From Prevotella sp. (lineage in GTDB: Bacteria; Bacteroidota; Bacteroidia; Bacteroidales; Bacteroidaceae): a stretch of DNA of 64,000 nt. The translations under genes and the position numbers were made by a program. This document shows, piece after piece, positions 20,420 to 64,000 of this stretch. The stretch covers positions 35,392 through 99,391 of the forward strand of contig JAFUFD010000060.1 of assembly GCA_017470055.1 (NCBI GenBank), given 5' to 3'. Below the pieces are notes generated by a model, which ran no database searches, had not been told where the DNA came from, and was given only the letters and a program-made list of their open reading frames with translations. How positions within the stretch are numbered: the stretch's first letter is position 1; each line of letters opens with the position of its first letter.

Positions 20420-20490
20420 TGGGGTATGGTGTAATGGTAACACTACAGATTCTGGTCCTGTCATTCTTGGTTCGAGTCCGAGTACCCCAA
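20420..20490 (+). tRNA. tRNA-Gln (anticodon CTG)
   Basis: The 71-base gene folds as a cloverleaf: acceptor TGGGGTA with TACCCCA, discriminator A, D arm GTGT-AATGGTA-ACAC, anticodon loop TTCTGGT and T arm with TTCGAGTC. The anticodon stem carries an A-C mismatch next to the loop. The 3' CCA is not encoded. A terminator follows directly. Confidence 0.93.
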
Positions 20491-52299: not shown

Positions 52300-53172
52300 T
52301 TATTCTGCAGCAGGCGCAGCCTCTTCCTCAGCCTTAGGAGCCTCCTCTACAGGAGCCTCAGCGGGTGCCTCTACAGGTGCTTCAGCAGCAGTCTTGCGGG
52401 GCTTACGGGCAGCACGCTTGGGCTTTGCCTCTTCTGCCTCTGCCTCAGCCTGTGCGTCAGCAGCCTTCTCGTCAGCCTTCTCAACCTTGCGCTCCTCAAG
52501 ACCCTCGGTGATAGCCTCACAGCAAGCGGCGAGAATGGTCTCAACGCTGTCTTTGGCATCATCATTAGCGGGGATGACGAAGTCGATGTTGTTAGGATCT
52601 GAGTTAGTATCTACGATACCGAATACGGGGATACCCAGACGGTTTGCCTCACGAACGGCGATCTGCTCCTTCAATACGTCAACGACGAAGAGAGCGGAAG
52701 GCAGACGTGTCAAGTCAGCGATAGAACCGAGGTTCTTCTCCAACTTAGCACGCTGACGGGTAATCTGCAGCAACTCACGCTTAGAAAGGTTAGCGTAGGT
52801 ACCGTCCTGCATCAGTTTGTCGATGTTCGCCATTTTCTTAACGGCCTTGCGGATAGTCGGGAAGTTGGTCAACATACCACCCGGCCAGCGCTCAATAACA
52901 TAAGGCATGTTCACGCTGGCAGCCTTGTCAGCGATGATTTCCTTAGTCTGTTTTTTAGTAGCGACGAACAGGATTTTCTTACCACTCTTGGCAATCTGCT
53001 TCAGGGCGTCTGCAGCCTCGTCAATCTTAACTACAGTCTTGTGGAGGTCAATGATATGGATACCGTTACGCTCAGTATAGATATACTGTGCCATAGCAGG
53101 GTTCCACTTACGTTTCAGGTGACCGAAATGACAGCCAGCCTGCAATAACTGATCAAAATTAGTTCTAGCCAT
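52300..53172 (-). CDS. rpsB: 30S ribosomal protein S2 with Ala/Glu/Lys-rich C-terminal extension
   Basis: The S2 core (residues 1-225, FGHLKRKWNPAMAQYIY, RWPGGMLTNF, DTNSDP) is normal. From about residue 226 to 290 there is a low-complexity extension of Ala, Glu, Pro and Lys with a basic patch KPKRAARKPRKT. The extension would leave the ribosome surface and its role is unknown. The gene follows a 171-base structured leader. Confidence 0.96.
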   Translation of the reverse strand: MARTNFDQLLQAGCHFGHLKRKWNPAMAQYIYTERNGIHIIDLHKTVVKIDEAADALKQIAKSGKKILFVATKKQTKEIIADKAASVNMPYVIERWPGGMLTNFPTIRKAVKKMANIDKLMQDGTYANLSKRELLQITRQRAKLEKNLGSIADLTRLPSALFVVDVLKEQIAVREANRLGIPVFGIVDTNSDPNNIDFVIPANDDAKDSVETILAACCEAITEGLEERKVEKADEKAADAQAEAEAEEAKPKRAARKPRKTAAEAPVEAPAEAPVEEAPKAEEEAAPAAE

Positions 53173-53737: not shown

Positions 53738-54205
53738 TTATTTATACTGGTTAATATCAATTGCTTTTGGTTTCTGAGCCTCATGCTTGTGCTCAGTGCC
53801 ATTGTAAATATAAAGGTTATTAAGCAGGCTGCGTCCCAGAGGACCTTTTGGCAGCATGCCCTTGACAGCGTGCTTCAGGAAACGCTCAACGCCATAGGGA
53901 GTCTTACGCAACTCGGCGGGAGTGCTGAAACGCTGACCACCAGGATAACCAGTATAACGGGTGTATACCTTGTCAGTCTCTTTCTTGCCAGTGAATTTCA
54001 CTTTAGCGGCATTGATGATGATTACGTTGTCTCCACAATCCTGGTTAGGAGTGAAGTTGGGTTTGTACTTTCCGCGAATCAGTTTCGCAACCTTAGAAGC
54101 AAGGCGGCCAACTACCTGATCGGTAGCGTCGATAACCACCCATTCTTTCTGCTCACGGGCGGCTTCCTTTGATACGGAAATGGTCTTGTAACTTAAAGTG
54201 TCCAT
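53738..54205 (-). CDS. rplM: 50S ribosomal protein L13
   Basis: The 155-residue protein has VVGRLASKVAKLIRGK, YTGYPGG, and the MLPKGPLGR signature. It is the first gene of the rplM-rpsI-rpsB-tsf unit and has a leader of about 190 bases. Confidence 0.97.
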   Translation of the reverse strand: MDTLSYKTISVSKEAAREQKEWVVIDATDQVVGRLASKVAKLIRGKYKPNFTPNQDCGDNVIIINAAKVKFTGKKETDKVYTRYTGYPGGQRFSTPAELRKTPYGVERFLKHAVKGMLPKGPLGRSLLNNLYIYNGTEHKHEAQKPKAIDINQYK

Positions 54206-54412
54206 TTTTACTTTTAATTTTTACTACTAAAAAACATTTACTTTTCTCTTATACACAAACGACACCACGGCAGAGAGTCTAACGCTCCGCAGCAGTCTAA
54301 CGTTCGGTTGAAATGCGATTCACTAACCACTGCGCCCGGCCAAAGACACTGCTATTAACACGCATCCCACGGGGATTCTAAGTCTCTCCCCAATAATCGG
54401 ACTGCAAAGGTA
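54206..54412 (-). promoter_or_regulatory. rplM promoter and long structured leader
   Basis: A minus-strand TACCTTTG (54405-54412) sets a leader of about 190 bases before rplM. It contains a GGGGA/TCCCC hairpin (54371-54391), a G+C-rich middle, and two AGTCTAACG copies 18 bases apart (54276 and 54294). The length and G+C-rich structure are unusual for this genome and suggest ribosomal-protein autoregulation. Confidence 0.5.
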
Positions 54413-60530: not shown

Positions 60531-61850
60531 ATGAAAAGAGCACTTTATAATTCGCTATTAAAATGGAAAAAGTCTCCCCGCAGGAAGCCTCTCATCCTAG
60601 AAGGTGCCCGTCAGGTTGGGAAGACTTGGTTGTTGCAAGAATTTGGAAGAAACGAATATGAGAACATGGTCTACATTAATTGCTCAGAGCAAGAATTTGC
60701 TAAGAATTTGTTTATGGACGATCTTGTTCCTAATCGTATTCTACGTGATATAGTTGCAAATACAGGACAGCGTATCATACCTGGACGTACACTGATTTTC
60801 TTTGACGAGATACAGGATGCGCCAAAGGGCATAACTGCATTGAAATATTTCTGTGAGGATGCCCCTGAACAACATGTTGTGGTAGCGGGCTCATTATTAG
60901 GTGTTGTGCATCATCCTGGAGAATCATATCCAGTTGGTAAAGTTAATTTATTAAGGCTATATCCTATGACTTTTGACGAGTTCATTTGGGCTAAAGGAAA
61001 TGCTACACTCGAGAGAATGGTCAAAGACTGTGAATGGGAATCCTTTACGGCTGTGGACCATTATCTGAAAGACCTGCTTCGACAATATTTTTATGTGGGC
61101 GGAATGCCTGAGGCTGTATTGGAATGGGTAACAACAGAGGATGTTCTCAACGTCAGGGATATACAAAACAGAATACTTGTATCGTATGCCAATGACATAT
61201 CCAAGCATACCGGTAATGATACAGAGCATGTTCGAATGGTATGGAATAGCATACCCGCACAGTTGGCAAAGGAAAACAAGAAATTCGTTTATGGAGCCGT
61301 CCGTAAAGGTGGTCGGGCAAAAGATTTTGAAGTGGCAATACAGTGGCTGGTGGATGCAGGATTAACCTATAAAATCCATCGATGTAATTCACCAGAACAA
61401 CCTCTGAAGTTTTATGAAGACTTCGATGCTTTTAAACTATATCTGCTTGATGTGGGACTTTTAGGAGCATTGAGTAAAGTTTCTGCAGGTAAGATGTTGG
61501 TTAATAATGATGTGTTCAAAGAATATAAGGGGGCTTTTACAGAAAATTACGTCTTAGAACAACTGATTACTTCTGAAAATTTAGTCATCTATTATTTCTC
61601 TAAGGAAAATTCCAAAGTTGAAGTTGACTTCCTTGTACAAACAAACAATCGAGTAATTCCTATTGAGGTAAAGGCTGAGGAAAATGTGAAAAGCAAGTCA
61701 CTGTCGCAATTTGTCCGAATAGATCACCCAGACAAGAAATTGAAGGGCTTGCGTTGCTCTATGAAACCCTATATTGACCAAGAATGGATGGAAAACATCC
61801 CACTTTATAGCATAAAGGCATATATTGACAAAGAGAATGAAGCGTTCTAA
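60531..61850 (+). CDS. AAA_14/DUF4143 family ATPase
   Basis: The 439-residue protein has a P-loop GARQVGKT near residue 28, Walker B FFDEIQD, a VAGSLLG sensor-like segment, and a C-terminal DUF4143 domain with a PD-(D/E)XK-like end (VEVDFLVQ, PIEVKAEE). The family is common in Bacteroidota, often as strain-specific copies, and its role is unknown. The gene is clearly more AT-rich than its neighbours, suggesting transfer. Upstream iterons suggest self-regulation. Confidence 0.88.
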   Translation: MKRALYNSLLKWKKSPRRKPLILEGARQVGKTWLLQEFGRNEYENMVYINCSEQEFAKNLFMDDLVPNRILRDIVANTGQRIIPGRTLIFFDEIQDAPKGITALKYFCEDAPEQHVVVAGSLLGVVHHPGESYPVGKVNLLRLYPMTFDEFIWAKGNATLERMVKDCEWESFTAVDHYLKDLLRQYFYVGGMPEAVLEWVTTEDVLNVRDIQNRILVSYANDISKHTGNDTEHVRMVWNSIPAQLAKENKKFVYGAVRKGGRAKDFEVAIQWLVDAGLTYKIHRCNSPEQPLKFYEDFDAFKLYLLDVGLLGALSKVSAGKMLVNNDVFKEYKGAFTENYVLEQLITSENLVIYYFSKENSKVEVDFLVQTNNRVIPIEVKAEENVKSKSLSQFVRIDHPDKKLKGLRCSMKPYIDQEWMENIPLYSIKAYIDKENEAF

Positions 61851-62072: not shown

Positions 62073-62200
62073 AAGCCTCCTCACGAAAATTACCAGCCTC
62101 CTCACGAAAATTACCAGCCTCCTCACGGAAAATACCAGCCTCCTCACGGAAAATACCAGCCTCCTCACTGAAATGAGCAGGCTGCTCATGGAAAACTGTA
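62073..62200. repeat. 21-base tandem repeat, six units
   Basis: GCCTCC cores occur at 62075, 62096, 62117, 62138, 62159 and (degenerate) 62180, exactly 21 bases apart. Units 1-2 and 3-4 form identical pairs differing in the AAAATTAC or GGAAAATAC end. Because 21 is divisible by three, one reading frame stays open on each strand (heptads like PPHENYQ on plus, EEAGNFR on minus), so openness is not evidence of coding. Confidence 0.9.
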
Positions 62201-62421: not shown

Positions 62422-62990
62422 TTACTTTACAATCACCTTACGACCGTTGATGATATACACGCCCTTAGGCAGTCCTTCAAGTGATGTGGCATGACTCTGT
62501 ATCTTCTGACCTCTCAGATTATAGACATTATAATCGGCTTTTGGGGGCGCTGGTATCGCTGTGATACCTGTTGGATCACCCTCGACTATATTGGAAAAAT
62601 TCTTCCACCCTTCTGCTAACTCATACTTACTTTTTGTTCCTTTAGGAACATACAGCGTACTACTTTCATAAGTAGTATTATCAAAAACATAATCGTCTAT
62701 ATCGAATAGGATTTCTATTTTTGAGATGACAGAAGTCAGACCAGAACACGACGAGAAAGCTTGCCATCCAATATTCGTCACGCTATTAGGTATCGTGATG
62801 GAAGTAAGACCAGAGCAACTATAGAAAGCAAAATCTCCGATGCTCGTCACACCATCTGGAATACTAATCGAAGTTAAACTACTGCAACCGTAGAAAGCAG
62901 CATATCCAATGGTCGTCACACCATCTTGAATAGTAATAGAAGTCAAATTACTACAGTCCGCGAACGCATAATTTCCTATGCTTGTTACGG
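62422..62990 (-). pseudogene. 3' fragment of a BspA-like leucine-rich repeat surface protein
   Basis: The frame encodes about four LRR_5 units (for example DGVTSIGDFAFYSCSGLTSI), a spacer (TLYVPKGTKSKYELAEGW) and a C-terminal VYNLRGQKIQ...GVYIINGRKVIVK tail similar to type IX-type sorting ends in Prevotella. Similarity starts abruptly at about 62990 within a repeat unit; farther upstream the frame is closed by a TAA at 63009, and there is no ATG or signal peptide. It is probably the remnant of a larger gene truncated by rearrangement. Confidence 0.8.
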
Positions 62991-63020
62991 AGAAAATTAT
63001 AACTCTTTAGAAATCATTTT

Positions 63021-63247
63021 GTTACCTCTTTCTGAGTGGTAGTTAGGTAACGATTTAGAAACGAGCTGAATTACATATTCTGTCTCGTTATACACATTTC
63101 CAAAGAACGCTTCTTAGTGAGTGCAAAGATAATCATTTATTCTGTTACCACCAAAGAAACTGGCAAAAACTTAACGTTTTTATAGGATTCTGTTACCTCT
63201 TCTCTGGTTATTATATGTCATTTAGTTACCAAGTCCATTTTGGTAAC
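63021..63247. repeat. Cluster of GTTACC/GGTAAC sites around an orphan promoter
   Basis: GTTACC occurs at 63021, 63144, 63192 and 63225, and GGTAAC at 63046 and 63242. GTTACCAA/TTGGTAAC (63225-63247) is a perfect 8-bp inverted repeat; GTTACCTCTT and GGTAACGATTT each occur twice. A minus-strand TATCTTTG -7 box lies among them at 63124-63131, but only very short frames follow it. Confidence 0.75.
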
Positions 63248-63314
63248 GATTTCCATTTGTTACGACGTCTGCATTATCCGCCCACCATCCCCACGGCAGA
63301 CTGCTTCGTTATTG

Positions 63315-63432
63315 GGCTGTCCTTTTATTGCCGTACCATACTCTTGGGACAAGCCGAAGAGAATGGTATGGCAATGGAGTGACGAGAAGACAGCACGCTA
63401 ACTTCTCCCGATGTCACTCCTTCCGGACGGCC
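63315..63432 (+). other. Three-way-junction element, copy 1
   Basis: P1 is GGCTGTCC (63315-63322) with GGACGGCC (63425-63432), including one G-U pair. P2 is a 19-base hairpin (63327-63345 with 63357-63375) with an 11-base loop GGGACAAGCCG. P3 is GGAGTGAC/GTCACTCC (63376-63383 with 63413-63420), a 5-base bulge, then GAGAAG/CTTCTC (63384-63389 with 63402-63407). Wobble pairs are allowed only if the plus strand is the RNA. Similarity to copy 2 extends left to about 63292. I recognise no known RNA family. Confidence 0.72.
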
Positions 63433-63649
63433 TCAATGACGGCAGTCGATCGTGGGGATAAAGGCGGATAGTGGAAAAGCAATCAGGCATACAACATTCT
63501 GTATTTCTCGCATCGTAGCAGGTACGACGGGGCAAATACAGAGAGTTGTCTGCAATATGACAATCCCCGTCATTAGTGCGTCGGAATGGCGTCAAACATG
63601 GTTTGCCGGATCATCCCGATGCACCAATGCCTTTTGGTGATTGCCGTCC
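63425..63649 (+). other. Nested inverted repeats between the two junction elements
   Basis: GGACGGC/GCCGTCC (63425-63431 with 63643-63649), AATGACGG/CCGTCATT (63435-63442 with 63567-63574) and CTGTATTT/AAATACAG (63499-63506 with 63534-63541, flanked by CAAC/GTTG) are nested. Small hairpins CAAAC/GTTTG and CACCAA/TTGGTG lie on the 3' side. No gene is visible here or in the pyrimidine-rich 63650-63820. Confidence 0.55.
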
Positions 63650-63843
63650 CTGCTTTTCTTTGTTCCTCTTCATACCTTATTTCTAATACTACAGACTTTT
63701 ACGCGTACATTATATTACTATTGCTTTTCTTCGCCTATCCCTTTTTTGCAATAGTTTTGTTCCTCCCCTTACACTTGTTCACTCAATCTTGTTATTCCAA
63801 GTACCTCCACTTTCCTCATGGCCGACGGCTTCGTCGTTGGTGC

Positions 63844-64000
63844 TGTCCTTTTCTGCCAACTCATACTCTGGGGACAAGCCTCAGAGAATGACATGGCAGC
63901 GGATTGGCGAGAAGATAGCGAAGCGAATACCTGCCTGAAAGTATTCGGGCAGACTCTCCCGCTTTGCTCACTTCTCCAGTTGCCACTCCTAAAAGGACAC
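63844..64000 (+). other. Three-way-junction element, copy 2 (reaches window edge)
   Basis: P1 is TGTCCTTTT (63844-63852) with AAAAGGACA (63991-63999). P2 starts at the very next base (63853-63870 with 63882-63899, loop containing GGGACAAGCC). P3 is GGATTGGC/GCCACTCC (63901-63908 with 63982-63989), a 5-base bulge, GAGAAG/CTTCTC (63909-63914 with 63971-63976), then an extended arm with AGCGAAGCG near 63917 and CTGCC/GGCAG at its tip. Left similarity to copy 1 starts at about 63823. Confidence 0.72.

Follow-up and report, generated by a model that had tools for sequence, protein, structure and literature searches.

The window, that is, the whole stretch of DNA that was analysed, comprises 64,000 nucleotides of a Prevotella sp. 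contig and holds, at its right-hand side, only the outer end of what gene order in relatives marks as a conjugative element (ICE). The ICE end region at 62961-63271 adjoins a truncated BspA-like gene (62422-62946, minus strand) and contains several GTTACC/GGTAAC repeats, those between 63000 and 63250 being possible integrase or excisionase sites. It is followed by two copies, A and B, of a folded element, which an earlier note made from the sequence alone had placed at 63315-63432 and 63844-64000 and described as sharing one architecture of a closing stem P1 and two hairpins, P2 and P3. Sequence comparison and folding confirmed both copies at these places, bore out P1, P2 and P3 of copy A and revealed the same parts in copy B.

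Each copy is larger than first described and consists of two tandem three-way junctions (parts I and II) spanning about 400 nt. Part I of copy A, supported by its fold and by homologues in other genomes, is a three-way junction at 63272-63472 with a long closing stem, in which the inner P1 pairs 63315-63322 with 63425-63432 and P1 extends outward to about 63272/63472. Its hairpin P2 (63327-63375) carries the loop GGGACAAGCC at 63347-63356, and its hairpin P3 (63376-63420) contains GAGAAG/CTTCTC and a 5-nt bulge on the 3' side. Part II of copy A is a second branched structure at 63474-63658, closed by GAAAAGC/GCTTTTC, and it recurs in relatives after each of the three copies A, B1 and B2. The predicted folding energy is -122.7 kcal/mol for part I over 63262-63480 and -191.6 kcal/mol for parts I and II together over 63262-63670. 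Copy B, the counterpart of B1, begins near 63814, upstream of the first-described 63844, and its part I (63814-64000) comprises P2 at 63853-63899, identified by sequence, fold and pair comparison, and P3 at 63901-63989 with a longer arm than in copy A; it is incomplete, as the last base of the window (64000) is also the last base of the contig. Elsewhere in the window, about four 21-nt tandem repeats of the CCTCCTCACGAAAATTACCAG type lie at 62080-62175, downstream of a predicted ATPase gene (60531-61850), and an Rfam search of the window reported an L13-Bacteroidia ribosomal leader and a tRNA (at 54317-54391 and 20420-20490) and nothing else.

The base changes on which the earlier note had based its claim of selection on structure were found to be real in a per-pair comparison, namely the both-sided changes from T-A to C-G and from T-A to G-C in P2, from A-T to G-C in P3, and from C-G to T-A between the two window copies. 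Among 25 distinct copies, taken from 59 rows after leaving out partial and antisense matches, the A-A mismatch of P2 is kept in 24, with L052 carrying C-A instead, and the P3 bulge measures 5 nt in all 25 while its letters vary. A separate analysis used 28 of 29 rows, with L137 left out. When the structure was fixed beforehand from copy A and applied to an alignment of ten copies from six genomes, 95.0% of 440 cells paired, and this value dropped to 34.8-61.6% when the partner was slid by one to three columns. Both-sided changes affected 7 of 44 pairs, a number reached in 4 of 500 shuffles; the inner P1, which this alignment misaligns, is excluded from these pair counts, and a second alignment (A2), which misaligns P3, was not used. 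Thus, selection on structure holds, pairing and both-sided changes being beyond chance in this fixed-structure test. The statement that no family could be recognised stands as well, as the element gave no Rfam match at gathering scores in the window or in the loci of eight relatives (L114 left out), and searches with the hairpins returned only matches below gathering, mostly to microRNA families.

Relatives of this family, called type 1, are found in a small fraction of genomes. Among 200 genomes of the genus, a DNA search matched 10, counting the window's own; six of the matches are strong, three are weak and one is limited to 47 bases at a contig end. A covariance-model search, of the kind that the earlier note had proposed, found homologues in 8 of 398 genomes of the genus, one of them with P2 alone, and in 4 of 251 genomes of a family sample, from 3 of its 30 genera. 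Scanning named genomes for an exact pattern yielded 14 stretches with Prevotella, Prevotellaceae, Bacteroidaceae, Bacteroidales or Porphyromonadaceae in their titles, several of them from rumen or deer, and no type 1 match was obtained in viral contigs by exact pattern or in plasmids. Where the contigs continue, the genes and units follow in the order BspA-like gene, A, B1, PRTase, RadC, B2, a small orf, PcfK and PcfJ, after which come tra genes on the opposite strand and then MobC_2, relaxase and coupling protein; the series from A to PcfJ is seen in loci L026 and L028 and in genome G507, and tra, mob and coupling genes are present together in one element on contigs of G081 and G507. Judged by this gene content, the host of type 1 units is a conjugative element of Prevotellaceae and Bacteroidaceae of gut and rumen, and conjugative elements are common in Bacteroidales. 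We take it to be a CTnDOT-like ICE, a name assigned from the gene order. Like CTnDOT-like conjugative transposons, it has a relaxase, MobC_2, a Toprim protein and a tra-like gene series, the tra names being taken from annotated relatives, and it contains a histidine kinase/response regulator pair that is presumably RteA/RteB-like.

The border of the ICE can be placed by comparison, since homology upstream of copy A begins at 62949-62982 in 12 of 14 related loci, the exceptions being L070, without upstream homology, and L052, in which homology reaches 62775; past the border, similarity is weak only and lies in the BspA-like region. At this border (62422-62982) the minus-strand BspA-like gene, which encodes leucine-rich repeats, is truncated, and because the ICE also abuts BspA-like genes in L026, L028 and L071, such genes may be its insertion target. 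In the window's own genome, which is 95.25% complete, no PcfK, no PRTase homologue at E 1e-15 and no core of the hairpin described below as element III was found, and its one RadC (65%) lies on another contig; the rest of its ICE is therefore unassembled or lost.

Within these elements the copies are tied to operons. In G507, the approximately 860 bp before the PRTase gene can be aligned over their full length, at 72% identity, with those before the orf/PcfK operon. The unit sits at the upstream end and is therefore part of an operon leader. In L060, positions 800-1180 hold a decayed B2 unit, whose 3' half is kept and whose 5' half is unrelated sequence. The earlier suggestion of a mobile-element end is correct as to the mobile element, in whose end region the copies lie, and incorrect as to a terminus, as internal copies stand before operons; the same internal placement makes a recombination site, also proposed, a poor fit. 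An integron attC or an element terminus was dropped as well, the copies being internal and tied to operons. It could still be argued that the copies are palindromic repeats of a MITE- or REP-like kind, or recombination or attachment sites of the ICE, given the long inverted repeats near the ICE end and the repetition of the copies, but this is highly improbable in view of the internal copies before operons, the similar placement with respect to genes in different elements and plasmids, and the both-sided changes, which were found in alignments of 71-92% mean identity.

The same plan recurs with other sequences. In G802, from another Bacteroidales family, two tandem three-way junctions stand before PcfK, in the same place and with a different sequence. 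This second family, designated type 2, is unrelated in sequence to type 1 and alike in architecture; it precedes PcfK-PcfJ operons in Bacteroides and Parabacteroides, with relatives in 9 of 295 genomes of the order, the query genome included, and in seven plasmid-collection records from Bacteroides, Parabacteroides and Phocaeicola; PcfK follows in four of six fetched records, and the other two list no gene there. With 11 of its 12 distinct sequences aligned (L136 left out), 97.0% of 735 cells pair and 13 of 67 pairs are changed on both sides, a number reached in none of 500 shuffles. The Parabacteroides plasmid pMMCAT carries a third sequence type twice, before the PRTase operon and before the PcfK operon, with an SSB gene between the two units. 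Seven windows with z below -5 were found in the B. fragilis plasmid record CP103159, five of which precede its five operons, PcfK, SSB, DUF2958, SSB and PRTase, while a P. vulgatus record, with six windows beyond z -5 that are not distributed one per operon, is less clear. Ten other PcfK loci were scanned, of which L117 and L119 lack any window with a z of -2.7 or less and, among the folded ones, L116 alone has the type 2 junction. In L115 (G663:C51), a long and strongly folded region of a different sequence, with -168.7 kcal/mol over 550 nt, lies 1650-2200 nt upstream of PcfK and is perhaps a further type of unit.

A plus-strand noncoding RNA, which the earlier note had offered as one possibility and which was also our working idea, was abandoned after strand-neutral counts. 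Consensus energies of six junction alignments sum to -811.8 for the plus strand and -812.1 for the minus strand, and among pairs predicted on both strands 89 cells are G.T and 106 are A.C; these counts replace an earlier one (53 G.T, 24 A.C) that used a structure fitted to the plus strand. Oriented RNA controls from the same genus behave differently, since RNase P gave 137 G.T to 25 A.C cells with the plus strand better in 29 of 29 sequences and tmRNA gave 48 to 23 with the plus strand better in 23 of 24, so that combined the RNA's own strand folds better in 52 of 53. The G.T/A.C count alone is weak at high identity (about 82%), as tight subsets gave 14 to 13 for tmRNA and 25 to 14 for RNase P. 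With both energies and counts near equal against strongly biased controls, the junctions show no RNA-like strand, and parts I and II look like DNA structures. Individual parts do lean to one strand: type 1 part I alone mostly folds better on the plus strand, and in type 2 the minus strand is better in 11 of 12 sequences for part I and in 9 of 11 for part II. In the six alignments of the strand-neutral counts, type 2 part II is represented by 10 of the 12 sequences (L136 and L139 left out).

Between the unit and the operon, relatives, and only relatives, contain element III, a hairpin about 300 nt long with the conserved core AAAATCTCCA...GGTAGTATTTT. Both type 1 and type 2 have it, it also stands before further PcfK and other genes, and its core pattern was found at 35 sites in 26 of 295 Bacteroidales genomes, with none in the reversed control. 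The minus strand, which serves as the operon's template, is the better-folding one in 39 of 43 element III windows, some of which are related and thus not independent, with RNA and DNA parameters alike, as compared to 99 of 238 background windows. When the flanks are shortened, the minus strand is favoured in 25 of 33 cases with RNA parameters and in 31 of 33 with DNA parameters. The operon-side region of the third type on pMMCAT folds slightly better on the plus strand, and in L122 element III faces away from PcfK. PcfK, PRTase-RadC and SSB genes lie downstream of element III sites or in a module with them, and some sites instead precede DUF6943, DUF6266 or DnaJ-domain genes. The core stands before genes of the function-unassigned families DUF6943 and/or DUF6266 in L176, L187, L188 and L197, which possibly represent a further kind of mobile element with the same predicted promoter, and before a gene for a small DnaJ-domain protein in L181 and L201.

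The promoter consensus of Bacteroidota is TTTG or TAnnTTTG. In element III, TAnnTTTG is found on the minus strand of the left arm, the one away from the operon, at 25 of 33 non-redundant sites, whereas the other combinations of arm and strand give 1, 0 and 1 of 33 and background windows 8.1%. The position is well defined, as 24 of 26 boxes lie 50-59 nt from the core, with 9 of 33 sites having no box there. CTTG lies 20-22 nt upstream in just 17 of 26 boxes, and at least five of the eight box bases are paired with the opposite arm in only 14 of 24 boxes, the other ten not being mostly paired. This box is a predicted promoter, which would point toward the hairpin base and the operon when the strand is folded.

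The best reading of these observations, to which we give about an even chance, is that the copies are folded-DNA units leading the establishment operons of a CTnDOT-like ICE, with element III firing from single-stranded DNA. In the fuller relatives each operon, PRTase-RadC as well as orf-PcfK-PcfJ, is led by a unit made of parts I and II and then by element III, which in the window's own ICE probably followed copy B, as it does in relatives. During conjugation the T-strand would enter the recipient single-stranded and serve as the template of these operons. On this strand element III would form a long hairpin with the TAnnTTTG promoter, often preceded by CTTG, in its 3' arm, and host RNA polymerase would start in the stem and leave the hairpin at its base into the operon before second-strand synthesis. 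In duplex DNA the same box would be directed away from the operon, and the genes would therefore be switched on only during entry. Parts I and II may provide further folded DNA beside element III and perhaps keep SSB off, or may alternatively serve priming or polymerase loading.

The direction of entry is deduced from the side on which the relaxase gene lies. In these elements, relaxase and mob genes lie across the presumed oriT from the tra genes, the position of oriT being itself presumed, and the relaxase gene is normally the last to enter the recipient, according to the Frpo survey (PMC11541004). With this rule and this placement of the mob and tra sides, it is the template strand of the PcfK-side operons that would be transferred. 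Lying beyond the tra operon from the presumed oriT, these operons would not be the first to enter.

Other explanations have to be weighed against transcription from folded single-stranded DNA. If transcription began far upstream, parts I and II could act within the 5' end of the mRNA as a structured leader, be it in regulation, processing or antitermination, and the single fixed orientation of units before operons, together with the plus-strand preference and the G.U pairs of type 1 part I, would fit such a leader. Against it, strand-neutral counts show no G.U excess, which RNase P and tmRNA do show, both parts of type 2 prefer the minus strand, element III is biased toward the template strand and no Rfam family matched at gathering scores; we regard an RNA leader as unlikely. 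An antisense noncoding RNA, driven by TAnnTTTG from the minus strand and carrying parts II and I, would account for a box that looks like a minus-strand promoter in double-stranded DNA and for the better minus-strand folding of most type 2 sequences. It would leave the template-strand bias of element III unexplained, place more than half of the element III hairpin upstream of its own start, as the hairpin spans the box, and conflict with the plus-strand preference of type 1 part I, which makes it improbable.

A single-strand origin, or priming site, at which the complementary strand is synthesized in the recipient or in rolling-circle replication, with no promoter role for the operon, would likewise explain structure at the DNA level and the SSB genes in the module. 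A dual role in transcription and primer synthesis is reported for Frpo in the title of Masai and Arai 1997, cited in PMC11541004. An origin alone, however, needs neither one unit per operon, as seen in several elements, nor a fixed box facing the operon when folded, and on these grounds it is quite unlikely to be the whole explanation. The same distinction separates the Bacteroidales units from the single-strand origin (sso) of ICEBs1, with which they would share a single-strand function in an ICE, while differing in being one per operon with a conserved box that faces the operon when folded.

Through single-strand promoters, F-type plasmids can express protective genes ahead of the double-stranded stage. 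Like Frpo/ssi, the units described here present a long imperfect hairpin, in repeated copies, before establishment operons, ssb among their genes, with a promoter box in the hairpin (in element III by prediction), and their operons are apparently oriented with the T-strand as template. A folding bias toward the template strand is likewise shared by element III and by F regions upstream of ssb and elsewhere. On the F plasmid, a minus bias is seen in the window before ssb (58340) and in those at 53840 and 63620-63680, within a region that averages a plus bias of 5.8 kcal/mol. Other folded windows there, at 52580, 56480 (slightly), 65720-65840 and 66800-66920, are minus-biased too, the one at 65720-65840 lying inside a gene coded on the minus-biased strand, and the bias is therefore not unique to Frpo. 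Differences from Frpo/ssi are the Bacteroidota-type box of element III instead of TTGACA/TATAAT, the added tandem three-way junctions, the location beyond the tra operon from the presumed oriT, and the lack of sequence similarity. While two of the F regions share 86% identity, a blastn comparison of three of them with the 33 element III sites gave no match at E 0.1. On present evidence, the Bacteroidales element would thus work like Frpo without being a member by sequence, and it is best read as a putative, independently evolved Bacteroidota analogue of the Frpo/ssi single-strand promoters. No description of folded leaders at the PcfK/PcfJ end in Bacteroidota appeared among the titles and abstract openings listed in a search of mainly open-access literature, preprints excluded, and the main text of the Frpo survey (PMC11541004) does not contain the string 'Bacteroid'.

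Taken with the relatives, the window copies suggest that such folds help to turn on the genes of the element before it becomes double-stranded in a new host. A broader proposal, for which we rate the chances somewhat below even, is that the conjugative elements of Bacteroidota independently evolved a class of single-strand promoters of their own, with one for each establishment operon, directed away from the operon in duplex DNA and into it in the folded single strand, so that these genes are on only during entry, and that the tandem three-way-junction DNA units add a further conserved component with no known counterpart. The switching on of genes from single-stranded DNA is already known from E. 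coli plasmids, and the searches made here brought up no report of it for Bacteroidota. A conserved element that can be predicted in front of PcfK/PcfJ, RadC, PRTase and SSB operons would give a lead to what these genes do in establishment and would make early expression in Bacteroidota directly testable.
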